This document shows positions 34,523-40,402 of a stretch of DNA of 64,000 nt, in pieces. The position numbers were made by a program, and so were the translations under genes. How positions within the stretch are numbered: the stretch's first letter is position 1; each line of letters starts with the position of its first letter. The stretch is from an uncultured Pelagibacteraceae bacterium (lineage in GTDB: Bacteria > Pseudomonadota > Alphaproteobacteria > Pelagibacterales > Pelagibacteraceae), in NCBI GenBank assembly GCA_902570125.1, contig CACFXK010000007.1, positions 1 through 64,000 of the forward strand, written 5' to 3'. Under the pieces are notes generated by a model. That model worked only from the letters and a program-made list of their open reading frames with translations, did no database searches and had not been told where the DNA came from.

Positions 34523-34608
34523 GCGGCCATGCTGAAATTGGTAGACAGGCACGGTTGAGGGCCGTGTGAGCCTAGCTCATGAGAGTTCGATTCTCTCTGG
34601 CCGCACCA
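34523..34608 (+). tRNA. tRNA-Leu(GAG)
   Basis: A class II tRNA of 86 bases including encoded CCA. The acceptor pairs GCGGCCA with TGGCCGC, the anticodon stem CACGG/CCGTG encloses TTGAGGG with anticodon GAG, and a long variable arm (GAGCCTAGCTC-type) and a T arm with GTTCGATTC follow. It lies at the left edge of the accessory region and could itself be an integration target, but I found no repeat of its 3' end. Confidence 0.95.
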
Positions 34609-34815: not shown

Positions 34816-35796
34816 TTATAATTTTAGCTTTTTTGTATAGTATTCAGATAAAATATTATAAACATCGCAATTTGGATGATCGTTGCTTAAAGATCTGGTC
34901 ATATTGCTTAAAGTTTTATTTTTTAATAAATAATCATAAGGGTCAAAAATTACAAAATCATTTCCAGAATTAATTTTTGAAAAATATTTTTTCCACATTA
35001 ATTGATTAGTGTTTTCCTTTTTTATAGAAGTCACATTTGGAAAATAAGTTAAATAAAATTTTCCTCCATTTGTTTCTATCTTCTTTTTTAGTAAAATTAT
35101 TAATTTAGATATATAGGCATTTTCTTCAGATTCAAAATCAGTCCATAATTTATTGTACTCAGTTCTAAAAAAAAACTTTTTAAGATAAGGTATATTTACT
35201 AAGGCATCCTTTGCCAGCGCAACAACTTTAAGATGTCTTGTTTTATTATTAATTTTTTTAAAAACTGTATTACTAGACTTTTCGTTTTTCTTCATTTTTG
35301 ATATCAAAGGACAGGACTGGGGTAATGGTAAATTATATTTTTTATTTTTAATAATTGCTAAATCACAAACTTCTTTAGATAACGCGATATCGTTATCATA
35401 TAAAAAAACTAAAAATATATCATCCTCCTTTATGTTTATTTTGTCAACAATATCTAAATAATTTATAACTGTTTTTCCATTTATTCCAAAATTGAAGACA
35501 TCTAAATTTTCAGTTTTTTTTTCAATGTAATCTGATAATGTTTTTTTCTCAAATGCACAGAATTCACCTTGAATAAAACTATCACCAAATAAAATTATTT
35601 TTTTCTCTGATTTAATAAGTTTTTTTTCATCTAAAAATAAATTATATGATATATTATTAATCTTTAATCTGTATGGATTGGTATATGGTTTATAATAATC
35701 ATCCCATCTTAAAAAAACTTCTAATAAAATTAAAGTTATCAAAATGCTTAAAATGGATGTAAGAAAATTTATAAAAAATACTTTTTTTTTTATCAT
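34816..35796 (-). CDS. Membrane-anchored SGNH/GDSL-type hydrolase
   Basis: A 326-residue protein with one N-terminal membrane helix (about 6-29) and an extracytoplasmic SGNH fold. The nucleophile block is LFGDSFIQGE (Ser73), the Gly block is FNFGINGKTVI (about 100), and the C-terminal catalytic block is DHPN (306-309). Such proteins often act on acyl or acetyl groups of surface glycans. In many bacteria a similar SGNH gene accompanies the SxtJ/DUF5989/carbamoyltransferase trio. Here that trio lies at 41370-43746, beyond the tmRNA island, on the other strand. The substrate is unknown. Confidence 0.7.
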   Translation of the reverse strand: MIKKKVFFINFLTSILSILITLILLEVFLRWDDYYKPYTNPYRLKINNISYNLFLDEKKLIKSEKKIILFGDSFIQGEFCAFEKKTLSDYIEKKTENLDVFNFGINGKTVINYLDIVDKINIKEDDIFLVFLYDNDIALSKEVCDLAIIKNKKYNLPLPQSCPLISKMKKNEKSSNTVFKKINNKTRHLKVVALAKDALVNIPYLKKFFFRTEYNKLWTDFESEENAYISKLIILLKKKIETNGGKFYLTYFPNVTSIKKENTNQLMWKKYFSKINSGNDFVIFDPYDYLLKNKTLSNMTRSLSNDHPNCDVYNILSEYYTKKLKL

Positions 35797-35926
35797 AAAT
35801 AAAATTTTTTCTATATTAACTCTAACCTATTTACTCAAATTAATTACTTGAGAAATTTTAGGTTTTTATTATGGTTTAAAAAATTGGTACAATAAATAAT
35901 AATTTTAATTAATAATGTATCATATA

Positions 35927-35955
35927 AGGGCGTACTGTTGCCAGTTACCCCAAAC
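35927..35955. repeat. Decayed copy of the tmRNA 3'-end repeat (att-like)
   Basis: AGGGCGTACTG then TTGCCAGTTACCCCAAAC, in the same orientation as the copies at 36086 and 40101. It matches the intact repeat at most positions, including the central CTGTTGCCAG, and shares CCCCAAAC with the tmRNA copy, which the 36086 copy does not. It may mark an older integration event. Confidence 0.6.
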
Positions 35956-36085
35956 AAAATAACATTATTCGCTAACAATTTGAATTGAAAAGCAATATGT
36001 TATAGTTGAACTGCGCCCTGAGGGCGTCCAAACGTATACTTAGTTAAAATTAATCAAATAAAATATTATAAAAATAAAATTTTAT

Positions 36086-36111
36086 AGGGGCGTTCTGTTG
36101 CCAGGTGCCCC
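36086..36111. repeat. Left 26-base direct repeat (attL-like)
   Basis: Identical over 26 bases to 40101-40126, the 3' end of the tmRNA gene: A, then GGGGC-GTT-CTG-TTGC-CAG-GT-GCCCC, able to fold as a hairpin. Flanking sequence differs on both sides. Two identical direct repeats about 4.0 kb apart, one being the end of a tmRNA gene, is the classic signature of tyrosine-integrase elements targeting tmRNA. Confidence 0.8.
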
Positions 36112-36131
36112 GAACTGTTTATCGAGATCCA

Positions 36132-36350
36132 CTAATAAACACATATAAATACTACCATTGATAGAACACCAATCAAGGAACTTGTGACGCCACCATGACG
36201 CCAAATATTGGAGGAGGGGTCCCAAACAAAGTCCAAAATAGATTTAATTAAAGTTACCCACATACCAATAACTACATAAAGGGGTCCCACTGCTTTAGGT
36301 GTATAGCAAGTCGAATAAAGACAGGACAATTGAAAACTTTTTGGTACCAT
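36132..36350 (-). CDS. Doubtful small membrane ORF in the attachment region
   Basis: An open frame of 72 codons starting MVPKSFQLSC with two hydrophobic stretches (about 24-42 and 58-72). It runs through the TGACGCC repeat and both GGGGTCCCA sites, so the reading frame may be an accident of regulatory DNA. Residue use is less Lys/Asn-rich than the neighbours. It is divergent from the zinc-ribbon gene by ten bases. I list it only as a possibility. Confidence 0.2.
   Translation of the reverse strand: MVPKSFQLSCLYSTCYTPKAVGPLYVVIGMWVTLIKSILDFVWDPSSNIWRHGGVTSSLIGVLSMVVFICVY
36181..36204. repeat. Left paired TGACGCC repeat (candidate integrase arm site)
   Basis: CTTG, then TGACGCCAC-CA-TGACGCCAA: two TGACGCC units on the same strand spaced 11 bases start to start. 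The 24-base block recurs at 40023-40046 with one difference (A/G). Each copy lies 55-70 bases inside a 26-base direct repeat, where arm-type binding sites of tyrosine integrases usually lie. Confidence 0.55.
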
Positions 36351-36360
36351 AAATAATTAA

Positions 36361-36564
36361 ATGGCTTGGTATAATATAAATTCTCAAGATAGTGTTACTG
36401 CAGAAACTTTAGAAAAAATTAGAACTGAAAGGTGTGGTTTCTGCGGACAAGAAAAACCAGTCAGAAAGAGAATGAAAATATATTTTTCAGAATTTGAAAT
36501 AGCAGAAAAACCAGTATGTCGAGATTGCTATGTCCAGAATTCAAAAAAGGCAATAGCTACTTAG
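36361..36564 (+). CDS. Small zinc-ribbon protein, unknown function
   Basis: A 67-residue soluble protein with two knuckles, CGFC (25-28) and CRDC (53-56), separated by a basic KPVRKRMKIYF stretch. A four-Cys zinc site is likely. Such small ribbons in mobile elements may bind DNA, RNA or protein; nothing here decides which. It is the first gene of the island on the plus strand, with ATG right after TTAA and no clear Shine-Dalgarno sequence. Followed by 64 non-coding bases. Confidence 0.65.
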   Translation: MAWYNINSQDSVTAETLEKIRTERCGFCGQEKPVRKRMKIYFSEFEIAEKPVCRDCYVQNSKKAIAT

Positions 36565-36628
36565 TTTTTAGGAATATCATTAGATAAATACAAGCAGACT
36601 CACGGTTATGGATTTGTTATAGTTTTAT

Positions 36629-36886
36629 ATGGCAACATACCAAGAAATTTTAGATAAAGTTCCAGAGTCTGTTAAGGACAAGTTCTTAATTAAAAAAAGA
36701 GAAAGAGCCATTGAAATTGTTAAAGATAAAATTTCTAAGTCTGGAAAAAGTTTAAATGATTTTGATGATGATGAGATGGAAGGAATGATTGCTGATGAGG
36801 AACAAAACCTTAAAGGGGATCAATTAAAAACAATTTTATTTACTTTATTAACAGCAGAGGGTTTGTCTTATTTAGCAAATCTTTAA
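36629..36886 (+). CDS. Hypothetical small helical protein
   Basis: An 85-residue soluble protein predicted to be mostly helical, with an acidic centre (DFDDDEMEGMIADEE, about 44-58) and a hydrophobic C-terminal helix (TILFTLLTAEGLSYLANL). No family recognised. It is followed one base later by a two-helix membrane protein gene, and the four genes to 37791 are arranged head to tail with overlaps, suggesting one operon. Confidence 0.6.
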   Translation: MATYQEILDKVPESVKDKFLIKKRERAIEIVKDKISKSGKSLNDFDDDEMEGMIADEEQNLKGDQLKTILFTLLTAEGLSYLANL

Positions 36887-36887
36887 T

Positions 36888-37319
36888 ATGTATAAAAAAA
36901 GTTTGTTTGCGATAATAGGTACTAAAATTTTATTTTTTTTTAAACCTGAGCTAAAAATCGTATTAAGGAATATAATTTTATGTGCTTTATTTGTGCTTTT
37001 AATTATTTATATTCATTATGAATTTATAAGTTGGTCATCGGTCTCTGGAATAAATGAATATCTTACATTTTCATATATTCTTAAAAATACTTTAATAATA
37101 TTATCGCTAGTTTTATTATTTTTTAGCATAAAAAGGTCAAAACTTAAAAATGATGGATTTGATAAATTTAGAGACAAAGAACTCAAAACATATTCTGAAA
37201 AAAAATTAGAACCTAAAACAAATTTACAAAAAAATGAGATAGACGATGCTTATTTTAATAAATTTAGAAATAAAAAAAAACTAAGAACTACTCAAGAAAT
37301 TAAACTAAACAAAAAATGA
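36888..37319 (+). CDS. Hypothetical membrane protein, two helices and charged tail
   Basis: A 143-residue protein with hydrophobic segments at about 24-43 and 62-80. A Lys/Glu-rich cytoplasmic tail (84-143) follows, in which the motif F-[RN]-[DN]-K appears twice (KFRDKELKT and KFRNKKKLRT), an internal duplication. No family recognised. It overlaps the next gene by four bases (ATGA). The operon position beside a soluble partner suggests they work together at the membrane. Confidence 0.6.
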   Translation: MYKKSLFAIIGTKILFFFKPELKIVLRNIILCALFVLLIIYIHYEFISWSSVSGINEYLTFSYILKNTLIILSLVLLFFSIKRSKLKNDGFDKFRDKELKTYSEKKLEPKTNLQKNEIDDAYFNKFRNKKKLRTTQEIKLNKK

Positions 37320-37732
37320 AAAAACAAAATGAATTGGTTATATTTGAAAAATTTAGATTAAAACTCTCACAAAAAGAAAAAAAAGAAATTGATGCTTTAA
37401 AAATGGAGTTTAAAGGTGCCCCAATCCAAACCACTGGTGCTATGTTATTTCTAGCGGCTGCCACTCCTTTTACAGGGGAGGGTACTAAATTTTACAAAGA
37501 AACAGCATCACAAATTGTAACAATATTTAAATCCTCTATTCGCGATGCAGCAATCAGTGATGTTAGTCAAAGTATTAGAAAAAAAAATAAAAAGGCTTAT
37601 CAATATAATGAAGAAGAGCTAAAAAAACTTATACTTAAACAAGAAAGTAGAATTAAAAAAAAAGGTAGAATTGGTTTAATGAAAAAAATTATTGTTGTAC
37701 ATCTGGGACTCGGCTTTTTACCATTTTTATGA
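37316..37732 (+). CDS. Hypothetical protein with a conserved-looking Gly/Ala hydrophobic core
   Basis: A 138-residue protein. A charged N-terminal coil (1-33) is followed by a hydrophobic GAMLFLAAATPFTGEG segment (about 40-56), an amphipathic region, a Lys-rich stretch and a hydrophobic C-terminus (KKIIVVHLGLGFLPFL). It could insert in or associate with the membrane. No family recognised. The stop overlaps a possible 20-residue ORF at 37729. Confidence 0.6.
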   Translation: MKKQNELVIFEKFRLKLSQKEKKEIDALKMEFKGAPIQTTGAMLFLAAATPFTGEGTKFYKETASQIVTIFKSSIRDAAISDVSQSIRKKNKKAYQYNEEELKKLILKQESRIKKKGRIGLMKKIIVVHLGLGFLPFL

Positions 37733-37791
37733 TTGAAGTATTAATAGCCTTGGAACTTGCATTTTTAGCTTATAAATTTTTGTCAGATTAA
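37729..37791 (+). CDS. Possible 20-residue membrane peptide
   Basis: ATG overlaps the preceding stop as ATGA, the same coupling used between the previous two genes. The product MIEVLIALELAFLAYKFLSD is a single hydrophobic helix. It is too short to judge by composition, but the coupling and hydrophobicity resemble small membrane peptides of toxin or regulator type. Weakly supported. Confidence 0.3.
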   Translation: MIEVLIALELAFLAYKFLSD

Positions 37792-37803
37792 CTCAACTTG
37801 AGT
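37791..37803. promoter_or_regulatory. 13-base palindrome upstream of the secreted-protein operon
   Basis: ACTCAA-C-TTGAGT is a perfect palindrome about 30 bases before the GTG start at 37833. It is too short in stem and lacks a T run, so it is not a terminator. A dimeric repressor operator is a reasonable guess. Confidence 0.3.
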
Positions 37804-37832
37804 AAGAGTTCGGGATTTGTTAATCTTGGATT

Positions 37833-38246
37833 GTGAAAAAGATTTTATCAATTTTTGTTATTAGCTTATTGATTGGTTTAAATGCAAGTGCTGAAATAAT
37901 TGATTTAAAATGTACATGGAACTCTGGATTTACAATTCCTAATGAGGATGTGAGTTCAAATAAAGGAAGAGTAGAATTTTTTAAAATAGATCTTGATAAA
38001 AAAATTATTTTAGACTCACCAAGTGGAGGCTACGAAAATAAAAAATATGAGCTTTCTTACACATGGGTACATGTAAGAGAAGACACCATATCTTTTGGTA
38101 TTAATGCAGGAAACGACACAAGAGTTCATACATATAAAATTGATAGAAATACTGGTATTCTAAAAGAAAATCACTCAATAAAAGAATTAGGATTAATTAG
38201 TAATAATTACCTATGCGAAAAAACTAAAATAAAAAAAAAATTTTAA
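37833..38246 (+). CDS. Small secreted protein with paired cysteines
   Basis: A 137-residue protein. A clear Sec signal peptide ends at ASAEI (cleavage about 21). The mature part is rich in beta-strand pattern, has a Cys soon after cleavage (LKCTW) and another near the end (YLCEK), and shows YKIDRNTGILKENH before the last Cys. This [IL]-[DN]-R-x-x-G-x-L then Cys layout recurs in the secreted protein at 38953 and, more loosely, at 38420. The start is GTG; an in-frame ATG would lose the signal. Function unknown; export to periplasm or medium inferred. Confidence 0.7.
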   Translation: MKKILSIFVISLLIGLNASAEIIDLKCTWNSGFTIPNEDVSSNKGRVEFFKIDLDKKIILDSPSGGYENKKYELSYTWVHVREDTISFGINAGNDTRVHTYKIDRNTGILKENHSIKELGLISNNYLCEKTKIKKKF

Positions 38247-38423
38247 ATGAAAAAACTTTTCAAAACACCATTCGCTAGAGGAAACTCTGTTGGTTTTATT
38301 ATAGGTATAATTGGTATTTCTGGAGTAGGCCCTTATCATTTAGCATGGATTGGAGTTGGTATAATTCTATGGACGTGGGTAGAAAAATACTTCTTTAGCA
38401 AGTACGATAATAGAATTGAATGA
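38247..38423 (+). CDS. 58-residue membrane protein, unknown
   Basis: An ATG one base after the previous stop opens a frame reading MKKLFKTPFARGNSVGFIIG..., with two hydrophobic segments (about 15-28 and 32-46) joined by GVGPYHLAW and a charged tail (EKYFFSKYDNRIE). Its TGA overlaps the ATG of the next gene. Position and coupling support a real gene despite the length. No family recognised. Confidence 0.55.
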   Translation: MKKLFKTPFARGNSVGFIIGIIGISGVGPYHLAWIGVGIILWTWVEKYFFSKYDNRIE

Positions 38424-38476
38424 AAAAACTTTTAAGTATTTTAGCTCTGAGTTTGTTTATGAGCGGGAGTGCTTAT
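38420..38476 (+). repeat. 57-base signal-peptide repeat, copy 1
   Basis: The first 19 codons are base-for-base identical to 38953-39009, including synonymous positions; identity ends at codon 20 (ACT versus GCA). Bases upstream of the ATG differ. Exact identity at third positions points to recent duplication or gene conversion confined to the leader. Confidence 0.85.
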
Positions 38477-38767
38477 ACTGAAACTTGGACTTGTGATAAT
38501 TTCAGACATGGAAAAGCTATGTATGAAGTTAAAGATACAGAAATTATATTAAGCTTTCCAAATAATGATGGCATAACCTTTAAAATAACAAAAGATCAAC
38601 GACAATACAAAATTAGTGTCTACGGAGAGTTCAGCGATAATCAAAGTGATTTTGATTTTGATATTTATATGGATTATGGAGGCAAGTATGTCATTAATAG
38701 AACCCAAGATGCTTTGTCTGGATATTCAAAATCCTATACAGATAAGAATTGTGTAATATTTCATTAA
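38420..38767 (+). CDS. Small secreted protein with paired cysteines (signal peptide copy 1)
   Basis: A 115-residue protein. The signal peptide MKKLLSILALSLFMSGSAY is encoded by 57 bases identical to the start of the gene at 38953. The mature part has Cys near the N-terminus (WTCDNF) and near the C-terminus (KNCVIFH), acidic beta-rich sequence between, and YVINRTQDALSGYSK before the last Cys. Function unknown. It overlaps the preceding membrane gene by four bases. Confidence 0.7.
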   Translation: MKKLLSILALSLFMSGSAYTETWTCDNFRHGKAMYEVKDTEIILSFPNNDGITFKITKDQRQYKISVYGEFSDNQSDFDFDIYMDYGGKYVINRTQDALSGYSKSYTDKNCVIFH

Positions 38768-38785
38768 TATGAAAAAACTTCTTAG

Positions 38786-38953
38786 ATGATGGACCAACTA
38801 ATACCTGTAGTATATATGATAGGAGTTCTATTGTTGGTTCTGCCTGCTTTTTTACAGTCTAATTCTAAATTAAAACAATTGTTAACTAATTTTACTATTT
38901 GGATTATCATAGTGCTTATAATTGTTACTTTTATTTATTTATTTAAGGATTAA
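38786..38953 (+). CDS. 55-residue two-helix membrane protein, unknown
   Basis: The frame reads MMDQLIPVVYMIGVLLLVL... with hydrophobic helices at about 6-22 and 38-52 and a polar SNSKLKQ turn. Either of two adjacent ATGs (38786, 38789) can start it. Its TAA shares one base with the ATG of the following secreted gene. Tight coupling supports expression. No family recognised. Confidence 0.55.
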   Translation: MMDQLIPVVYMIGVLLLVLPAFLQSNSKLKQLLTNFTIWIIIVLIIVTFIYLFKD

Positions 38954-39009
38954 TGAAAAAACTTTTAAGTATTTTAGCTCTGAGTTTGTTTATGAGCGGG
39001 AGTGCTTAT
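38953..39009 (+). repeat. 57-base signal-peptide repeat, copy 2
   Basis: Identical to 38420-38476 over 57 bases. A third, aborted version begins at 38769 (MKKLLR, then stop), just after the first secreted gene. Confidence 0.85.
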
Positions 39010-39405
39010 GCAGAAACAATTAAAAAAATTCATTTTATATGTTCATTTGATAAATTTATAAACATTGTTGCATTTGATGAAATTCCAAAACCAAAAGATG
39101 AATTGCCAACTGTTATTACTAATGACAGATTTTTGATTTTAGGAATTAAACCTAATGACGACATTATAGTTTTAGAAACTTCTTTCTGGATAATCTCAAG
39201 TACATTTGAACCAAAAGAAAGAATAATAATTCCTTCTCAAATAAATGATAAAGAAATTAAATTCAAAATTCCAAGATTATCAGAGAATGTTAACCAAGTA
39301 GTTACCTTAAATAGAAGAAGTGGAAAGCTTGAGTATGCTTTTAAAAGTCCTGTAGATCATGGCAAAATATTCTACACTTGTTCAATAAAAGAAAAATTAT
39401 TTTAA
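38953..39405 (+). CDS. Small secreted protein with paired cysteines (signal peptide copy 2)
   Basis: A 150-residue protein with signal peptide MKKLLSILALSLFMSGSAYA, cut after AYA. The mature part has Cys30 (HFICSF) and Cys143 (FYTCSIK), predominantly beta-type sequence, and the motif VTLNRRSGKLEYAF before the last Cys. It shares its leader DNA with the gene at 38420 but not its mature sequence. Likely a disulfide-stabilised periplasmic or extracellular protein; function unknown. The next gene starts immediately after the stop. Confidence 0.7.
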   Translation: MKKLLSILALSLFMSGSAYAETIKKIHFICSFDKFINIVAFDEIPKPKDELPTVITNDRFLILGIKPNDDIIVLETSFWIISSTFEPKERIIIPSQINDKEIKFKIPRLSENVNQVVTLNRRSGKLEYAFKSPVDHGKIFYTCSIKEKLF

Positions 39406-39966
39406 ATGCAAAAACTTTTTACTCTTTTATTAATATTTATTGTAACAACTGGTTTTTTTCATAGCAAAAAAGATAAAGCACTAGAGAATTGTGCTGATTA
39501 TAATTTTAAAAATAAACATACTAAGGAATATGTCAGCTATTTTTATGATAGAGATGACCCAAAAGTTCTAGGAATATCAAGAACAATTAAAATACAACAA
39601 AAAGCTGTCGATAAATTAAGTCAAAAGCATTCAGATTATTTGAAGAAAAACTATAAAATTGAAAATTCTCTTGCAGTTGTAATAATACCTAAAGATTTGA
39701 CAACGACCGAGGCTAAAAAAAGTTATGAAAATGTAATTGAAAGCCAATCTCTAAAATTATTAGATGCATGGACCGAGGAAGCAGTTTTTTTAAGGCATGA
39801 AAAAAAACTTTTAGAAGAAATGAAAGAATATACTGCTAAGAAAGTATTTAACAAATCCTCAATTAAAGAAAAAATTGAAGTTAACTCCTATTATAAAGAG
39901 CTTTCAAACTGTGAAAAAGAACACTCTGAAGCATCAAAAGCTTTTGAGCTTAAATGGATTGATTAA
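39406..39966 (+). CDS. Exported helical protein, unknown function
   Basis: A 186-residue protein. A hydrophobic leader (1-18, MQKLFTLLLIFIVTTGFF) is followed by HSKKDK. This may be a signal peptide or an uncleaved anchor; no lipobox is visible. The mature part is highly charged and helical (KAVDKLSQKHSDYLKKNY, EAVFLRHEKKLLEEMKEYTAKK), with two cysteines (ENCADY, LSNCEKE). No family recognised. It is the last gene of the island operon. Confidence 0.6.
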   Translation: MQKLFTLLLIFIVTTGFFHSKKDKALENCADYNFKNKHTKEYVSYFYDRDDPKVLGISRTIKIQQKAVDKLSQKHSDYLKKNYKIENSLAVVIIPKDLTTTEAKKSYENVIESQSLKLLDAWTEEAVFLRHEKKLLEEMKEYTAKKVFNKSSIKEKIEVNSYYKELSNCEKEHSEASKAFELKWID

Positions 39967-40022
39967 GAGTTACTCAGTTTTAAACAGTGTCTTATCCAGG
40001 AGTTCATTTACTAAATCCCTTT

Positions 40023-40046
40023 CTTGTGACGCCACCGTGACGCCAA
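40023..40046. repeat. Right paired TGACGCC repeat (candidate integrase arm site)
   Basis: CTTG, then TGACGCCAC-CG-TGACGCCAA; matches 36181-36204 at 23 of 24 positions in the same orientation. It lies 55 bases before the right direct repeat. A 14-base palindrome ACTTTTTAAAAAGT (about 40056-40069) lies between them. Confidence 0.55.
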
Positions 40047-40100
40047 CCTGTATTTACTTTTTAAAAAGTGTTTATTTTTCTAGCGAACCGAGAATCAGGA

Positions 40101-40126
40101 AGGGGCGTTCTGTTGCCAGGTGCCCC
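40101..40126. repeat. Right 26-base direct repeat (attR-like, tmRNA 3' end)
   Basis: The copy of the 26-base repeat that forms the terminal hairpin of the tmRNA coding piece (minus strand). On the minus strand it reads GGGGC-AC-CTG-GCAA-CAG-AAC-GCCCC. Identical to 36086-36111. Confidence 0.8.
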
Positions 40127-40358
40127 AAACCCCGTAACCTAATTAATTAATTAATTAAGCTGCAAGTGCATAACTTTCGTTAGCATTTATAAATTAGCCC
40201 ATCACGGCGGAGCAATACCGAACGAAAGAACAACTTTTAGACATCCGTCGATCCTAATTCACCCCCCTAAGTTGAAAATGGTGGAGGTGGTGGGTACTGC
40301 CCCCACGTCCGTAATGGTTATTACGAAATTCGTTTATCGTCATAGTTGGAAAACCAAC
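40102..40358 (-). ncRNA. ssrA: Permuted two-piece transfer-messenger RNA (alpha-tmRNA)
   Basis: On the minus strand the acceptor piece comes first (40358-40279). It has a GTTGG-TTTT-CCAAC hairpin, a CGTAAT-AACC-ATTACG helix, a T arm GTGGG-GGCAGTA-CCCAC, acceptor strand CACCTCC, then A and CCA. After about 12 bases the coding piece begins (40266) with GGGGGTG, which pairs fully with CACCTCC (one G-T), then GGATCGACGG, a tmRNA hallmark. It carries the tag frame (40184-40155) and ends in the GGGGC/GCCCC hairpin. The T-loop GGCAGTA is unlike TTCGANT but fits the alphaproteobacterial type. With SmpB it rescues stalled ribosomes. Ends are approximate. Confidence 0.92.
40155..40184 (-). other. tmRNA proteolysis-tag reading frame
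   Basis: GCT AAC GAA AGT TAT GCA CTT GCA GCT TAA encodes ANESYALAA, added after the alanine charged on the tmRNA. The ALAA end is the usual ClpXP/ClpAP degron. The TAA is followed by a TAAT/TAATTAAT tandem (to about 40141) that supplies stops in further frames. Confidence 0.9.
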
Positions 40359-40364
40359 ACTATT

Positions 40365-40392
40365 AATATAAAAGCTAATATAATAGATTCAA
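40365..40392 (-). promoter_or_regulatory. Candidate tmRNA promoter
   Basis: On the minus strand TTGAAT (40392-40387) and TATATT (40370-40365) are 16 bases apart. The predicted start, about seven bases downstream, falls at 40358, the first base of the acceptor-piece hairpin. It occupies the 44-base gap to the divergent thyX ATG. Confidence 0.55.
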
Positions 40393-40402
40393 TAATTTAT
40401 TC

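Follow-up and report, generated by a model that had tools for sequence, protein, structure and literature searches.

In Dehalococcoides, 31 ssrA-specific islands have been described, 16 of which carry an integration module (PMC3146451, as far as the accessible part of that report goes), and for one of the intY islands at the transfer-messenger RNA (tmRNA) gene of Pseudomonas, movement by a jumbo phage has been demonstrated (PMC12595487, likewise in its accessible part); VEIMEs and tycheposons are named as phage satellites of marine bacteria in the available excerpt of PMC11389934. How genes move in the streamlined genomes of SAR11 is an open question, which is addressed here with an island at the tmRNA gene of an uncultured Pelagibacteraceae bacterium (contig CACFXK010000007.1, of which the first 64,000 nucleotides, here called the window, were analysed). 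This island, at positions 36086-40126, has no integrase and, judging from sequence comparisons, is rather probably a deletion derivative of a satellite-like element of the type found at locus L024, whose tyrosine integrase would move it in trans. It belongs to a known kind, that of islands flanked by attachment (att) sites which have lost their integrase. Among elements of this kind, the cis-mobilizable elements (CIMEs), which descend from conjugative elements, have att sites at both ends and no integrase of their own, and depend on a relative. The finding is wider than the single island of the preliminary description of this DNA, since it takes in a family of integrase-less islands at the SAR11 tmRNA gene, a single deletion scar and a sibling in which the missing integrase is present.

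The island at the tmRNA gene and its siblings

The limits of the island, its target and the shell that it shares with its siblings are as follows.

36086 to 36111, plus strand: attL, the left copy of the 26-nt core AGGGGCGTTCTGTTGCCAGGTGCCCC, found by repeat search and present as a single copy in empty relatives
40101 to 40126, plus strand: attR, the right copy of the core AGGGGCGTTCTGTTGCCAGGTGCCCC, which forms the hairpin at the end of the tmRNA coding piece
40098 to 40396, minus strand: permuted tmRNA gene, the target of the island (Rfam alpha_tmRNA, 228.6 bits; ARAGORN tmRNA*)
36112 to 36360, plus strand: conserved non-coding left shell, common to L015, L018, L023 and L155 and, more distantly, L024
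36361 to 36564, plus strand: shell gene of 67 amino acids (aa) with a CxxC...CxxC pattern, present in 6 of 6 complete islands of the window's type

The preliminary description had placed a perfect 26-base direct repeat around about 4 kb of DNA and had taken its right copy for the end of the tmRNA gene. The repeat was found again at exactly these positions, and Rfam and ARAGORN agree on the gene, which has the tag peptide ANESYALAA according to ARAGORN and holds attR within its 3'-terminal part. With up to 3 mismatches allowed, the last 25 bases of the core match the window at attL and attR only, and they match none of 100 shuffles. No match to the window tmRNA was found among annotated phage records.

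It had also been noted that the frames inside the repeats include no integrase and are small and unknown, and the searches bear this out. The longest frame between the core copies has 186 aa; 9 frames compared with Pfam and 10 compared with PHROGs gave nothing at E≤0.001, and a hidden Markov model (HMM) of tyrosine integrases found no match among the 14 open reading frames (ORFs) of the island. The same HMM recovers the integrases of L024 and L196, both left out of the model, at E values of about 1e-74.

Islands that share these end sequences sit at the same tmRNA gene in six other SAR11 genomes. Those of L015, L018, L023 and L155 (the last, from genome G392, being a fuller stretch of the place L022) are integrase-less and differ in cargo, and the HMM matched 0 of 66 ORFs in these four islands and that of the window. 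L024, in turn, has a 343-aa integrase whose frame starts at the right arm-type site described below (PF00589, E 2.7e-19) and, between its ends, a primase-like gene (PHROG, E 3.3e-7). An integrase 94% identical to it occupies the same place in L020, on a contig that stops before the left end. From the left shell to the end of the 67-aa gene the five integrase-less islands are 94.1-97.8% identical among themselves and 89.2-91.3% identical to L024, and the right end is common to all six complete islands, the window and L024 agreeing at 98.2% over 109 bp. Because it has the same ends as a rarer, integrase-bearing sibling, the window island is likely a stripped-down hitchhiker; the earlier suggestion of a satellite that borrows an integrase, or else a stabilised remnant, thus gains support, with L024/L020 as the candidate lender.

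Relatives of the L024 integrase were found at E≤1e-20 in 18 of the 399 genomes of a genus survey, two of them at the tmRNA, in G224 (locus L020) and in G530. The latter genome has a complete 6.2-kb tmRNA element (L196, 5152-11349) with an integrase and a primase-like gene (PHROG, E 8.1e-25). The right arm region of this element resembles, by eye, that of L131, which might possibly be its hitchhiker. For the 67-aa shell gene 19 relatives were found in the protein collection; the structural model of its product is of low confidence (pLDDT 58) and gave no match in the PDB at E≤0.001.

Paired putative arm-type sites and a deletion scar

Just inside the core repeats the window has paired sites, GTGACGCCACCRTGACGCCA at 36184 and at 40026, which the preliminary description had missed, and next to the right one lies the remnant of a gene, likewise unnoticed there.

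36184 to 36203, plus strand: putative left arm-type site GTGACGCCACCATGACGCCA, two TGACGCC units with an 11-bp period
40026 to 40045, plus strand: putative right arm-type site GTGACGCCACCGTGACGCCA, two TGACGCC units with an 11-bp period
39965 to 40023, minus strand: deletion scar, in which the C-terminal end of the L024 210-aa gene survives in frame
36216 to 36224 and 36281 to 36289, plus strand: a pair of GGGGTCCCA, 65 bp apart

Since their placement matches the attachment layout of tyrosine integrases, we infer that the inner sites are arm-type sites of such an enzyme. They have no further copy in their own genome at up to 3 mismatches. A scan of genome contigs for the motif gave ten stretches, of which six are from Pelagibacteraceae, all six with the hairpin; the hairpin is absent in three of the four contigs from non-SAR11 genomes, the fourth being L019. 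The motif is also present in 7 viral contigs, one of which (L007) was read as a contig and the other six around the motif alone. In the phage contig L007 it occurs where a 371-aa tyrosine integrase (PF00589, E 1.6e-21) ends and adjoins what looks by eye like a fragment of tRNA-Leu, on the far side of which there is a second, slightly different copy; this is how an attachment site and its arm-type sites are laid out.

The pairing of the two ends was assessed by comparing the left end of each island with its own right end and with those of the others, over 29 units (units shorter than 300 bp were dropped, and cross pairings among the six islands of the window's type were left out). These six islands rank first, none of 23 cross pairings being as good, and 7 of the 23 other units are equalled by at most 1 of 28 pairings. 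Other islands at the same core have different ends and other arm-like pairs, for example TGTGCCA in L137 and L085 and AATTCCGA in L090.

The GGGGTCCCA pair is present in five islands, and in L024 both places (island positions 167 and 232) read GGGATCCTA; a matched change of this kind would be expected if the two sites served a single protein.

At the right arm-type site of the window, 59 bp match the L024 210-aa gene at its 3' end with 78% identity (E 3.5e-7 against a six-island database), and in L018 and L155 the identity to this gene end is 80% over 56 bp. The translation remains in frame, ERDLVNELLDKTLFKTE followed by a stop in the window and ERDLVKELLDKTLPKSK followed by a stop in L024. 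In L024 the end of this gene sits far to the left, beside the 67-aa gene, so that the window, L018 and L155 lack most of the 210-aa gene together with the primase, a 109-aa gene and the integrase. The scar shows one route by which such an island sheds its integrase. It was not found in L023 and L015 in the island comparison, and these two may therefore have lost the integrase separately.

Probable movement of the islands and exchange of their cargo

A tmRNA match was obtained in 128 of 151 genomes, and 99 of these loci were fetched, chosen by hand for reaching the 3' hairpin and not for their islands (29 were left unfetched); L155 was added for its arm motif and stands outside all counts per 99. 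Extra core copies were accepted at up to 5 mismatches, and a locus was called empty when it had a single core copy and the host neighbour gene within 400 bp. By these definitions the 99 loci comprise 33 empty ones, 19 with a second core copy, 23 in which a single copy goes with a displaced neighbour, and 24 without a visible neighbour. With L155 included, the 100 loci hold 23 extra core copies, compared with 0 for each of 20 shuffled hairpins. The HMM matched 0 of 92 ORFs in the 20 loci with two copies (L155 included); 16 of their genomes have a PF00589 match, always on a contig other than that of the tmRNA, and 4 have none. The preliminary description had considered a compact island unusual in so streamlined a genome, and this was not borne out, given a second core copy at 19 of 99 loci. 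One to three core copies each were seen in L198-L203 (on G475:C5, G488:C1, G459:C8, G487:C2, G499:C3 and G408:C4), possibly as pieces of broken island arrays.

Empty relatives such as L056, L059, L061 and L065 have the tRNA-Leu(GAG) gene, a short spacer and then a single hairpin. The outcome that the preliminary description had named as speaking against it, namely the same genes and both repeats in all related genomes, did not arise, since there are empty sites and, in the four other integrase-less islands, alternative cargo between the same ends. The window and L018 agree at 95.6% in the shell and 85.8% in the chromosomal flank, and L018 and L024 at 89.2% in the shell and 95.0% in the flank. 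For the window, L015, L018, L155, L024 and L020 the seven closest relatives by flank include empty loci in each case (the flank of L023 was too short for this comparison). The discord between shells and flanks, along with the empty loci among relatives, supports a horizontal gain of the shells, whichever enzyme may have brought it about.

The sequence of events that we propose would begin with one internal deletion, by which most of the 210-aa gene, the primase, the 109-aa gene and the integrase were taken, after which cargo would have been loaded between the retained ends. A helper integrase would bind the arm-type sites and recombine the two cores, leaving the tmRNA whole. Once docked, islands may also swap cargo with one another, the shared shell and the repeated signal-peptide leaders being where homologous recombination would act. 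For passage between cells our best guess, by analogy with other primase-bearing satellites, is packaging by a phage. Mobilisation in trans by the integrase of a sibling, which we infer from the shared ends, is likely.

Homologous recombination probably moves at least the cargo, whose genes and leaders are the following.

36629 to 37732, plus strand: cargo genes of 85, 143 and 138 aa, near-identical in L018
37833 to 39966, plus strand: cargo array of genes of 137, 58, 115, 55, 150 and 186 aa, with a start resembling a signal peptide in several of them
38420 to 38484, plus strand: leader repeat copy 1, 97% identical to copy 2
38769 to 38785, plus strand: truncated leader remnant (MKKLLR and a stop)
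38953 to 39017, plus strand: leader repeat copy 2, 100% identical over 64 nt to a leader in the L155 island

The gene at 38420 and an unrelated gene at 38953 have leaders that are 97% identical, and the body of the former carries another leader in L023 and L015; one secreted-protein body is thus found under differing signal-peptide leaders, and the cargo is a mosaic. The leader, taken as at least 60 nt at no less than 97% identity, occurs at three places in the seven island genomes, all within islands, a pattern that fits recombination in the leaders. None of the window cargo frames tested had a match at E≤0.001 in Pfam, PHROG or PADLOC (the best PADLOC match being mad3, E 0.003), and no function is therefore claimed for the cargo.

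These data lend some weight to the explanation that the shell is a fixed docking platform without site-specific movement, in which cargo is swapped solely by homologous recombination through the ends and leaders. An amidohydrolase block shared by L015 and L018 is 99.65% identical over 1150 bp, compared with 95.0% in the flanks and 94.2% in the first 533 island bases, and the ends of shared blocks fall, by eye, at or near gene starts, in leaders and once at a stop codon. Over its first 1760 bp the window island agrees with L018 at 98.2%, and the cargo is the closer part, which implies that it moves without the shell. A platform that stays put is nevertheless difficult to reconcile with shell and flank identities that are discordant in both directions, with empty loci among the closest flank relatives of each of the six carriers tested and with the intact state of both arm-type sites in four islands (window, L018, L155 and L023), and we regard it as unlikely. 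A dead remnant, which has lost its integrase, stays in place and merely decays, would agree with the absence of an integrase in the window island, with the degenerate older core copy alongside it and with the incomplete arm site of L015; this is very improbable in view of the open frames, perfect cores and arm-type sites, and of five integrase-less islands that share the same ends and have near-identical exchanged cargo. That the 312-aa tyrosine recombinase of the own genome moves the island, as its sole PF00589 match, is hardly credible, given that most of the 25 SAR11 genomes examined have proteins of similar length away from the tmRNA, that neither the hairpin nor TGACGYC repeats surround most of them (L172 has one TGACGYC) and that L024 has such a protein too and yet carries its own integrase.

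Several observations weigh against trans mobilisation of a deletion derivative, the reading that we prefer. The left arm of L024 is degenerate and L015 is down to one right arm unit, and in the arm-pair comparison 16 of the 23 other units do not stand out. Between the window and L018 there are 6 mismatches in island bases 551-1650 (1100 bp) and 19 in the first 440 bp. The joined junction that an excised, circular form would have was found in 0 viral contigs, the left end of the island had no match in 50,697 phage records, and the 67-aa gene had none in viral contigs. Moreover, the one PF00589 match of the own genome (86% complete), the 312-aa protein at L001 (G000:C3:87675-88184), lies away from the island and has no arm sites, so that no helper is now present in that genome.

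To the left of the island the window contains the host neighbour and traces of older events.

34523 to 34608, plus strand: tRNA-Leu(GAG), which adjoins the tmRNA at empty sites
35923 to 36085, plus strand: older remnant, a degenerate core and the left end of another island type, from by-eye comparison with L085, L100 and L137

The degenerate core is a third copy, at 35923-35947 with 4 mismatches, which the preliminary description had also missed, and together with the foreign left end it suggests an earlier, decayed insertion. Between the tRNA-Leu gene and the island, a 326-aa GDSL-like protein is encoded at 34816-35796 on the minus strand (PF00657, 22.7 bits, below the cut-off of 23.6); it is perhaps cargo of an older insertion.

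Phage links and comparison with known systems

Searches with the L024 integrase gave one relative in viral contigs (L025, 26% identity) and matched 389 annotated phage records, all below 60% identity, the best among the matches listed having 32%; the L024 primase had no match in viral contigs. Eight viral contigs (L205-L212) have the identical 25-nt core, as a single copy each, in a permuted tmRNA whose tag is ADENLALAA in seven and a longer form in L209, and those of their genes that were read look T4-like by eye. A two-piece tmRNA has been described in marine phages of the T4-like kind (PMC9004378, in the part of the source available). Since T4-like marine phages have the very same core in their tmRNA, genomes of this type might serve the islands as a landing site. 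A broader picture, which we put forward tentatively and hold for doubtful as a whole, is that a guild of integrase-less islands shares the SAR11 tmRNA hairpin as its dock; all would have one core, the paired 7-bp arm repeats would be an address pointing each island to the rare integrase-bearing satellite that can move it, the cargo of docked islands would be reshuffled at repeated signal-peptide leaders without a dedicated enzyme, and islands might also land in lytic phages and ride them.

A second core copy without a recognisable integrase in between at 19 of 99 loci stands against a related tmRNA integrase in only 2 of 399 genomes. If the helpers on which the islands rely are seldom present in the same cell, hitchhikers would be the carriers of flexible genes at this locus, and if the arm repeats differ by island type, pairs of helper and hitchhiker could be read from sequence. 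No description of such islands was found among titles and openings of abstracts in the SAR11 and Pelagibacter literature on tmRNA, islands and integrases, a search outside which most subscription journals fall, so that novelty is unproven.

Like the window island, the Dehalococcoides islands stand in tandem downstream of the tmRNA and are bounded by a direct repeat of its end; they differ in their serine recombinases and 20-bp repeat, and the available text mentions neither arm sites nor a scar (PMC3146451). The Pseudomonas intY islands, as far as the accessible description goes, share a tyrosine integrase acting at the tmRNA 3' end, direct repeats and variable cargo, and differ in being much larger, with their own integrase, an AlpA-like gene and a shared region of about 18 kb (PMC12595487). 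VEIMEs and tycheposons are likewise small elements integrated at RNA genes, whereas the window island has neither integrase nor primase. L024 and L196, with an integrase and a primase-like gene, presumably resemble these satellites. The integrase and replication gene of phage satellites such as VEIMEs, tycheposons, PICIs and PICMIs are present in L024 and absent from the window island, and searches of phage records and viral contigs with island sequences gave no match that would point to packaging. In a broad sense the island is CIME-like: it has the core at both ends, one copy lying in the target gene, it has no recombinase of its own, and relatives with the same ends and a recombinase exist (L024, L020). 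A CIME in the strict sense would derive from a conjugative element, and neither the window frames nor four frames of L024 gave a conjugation gene among their Pfam and PHROG matches. Different enzymes act on MITEs and CALIN arrays, and the window cassettes are bounded by gene starts rather than by attC sites, for which no search was made, or terminal inverted repeats; the likeness, according to the available part of PMC11389934, is that these too are deletion derivatives or arrays which keep the recognition sites of an enzyme encoded elsewhere.

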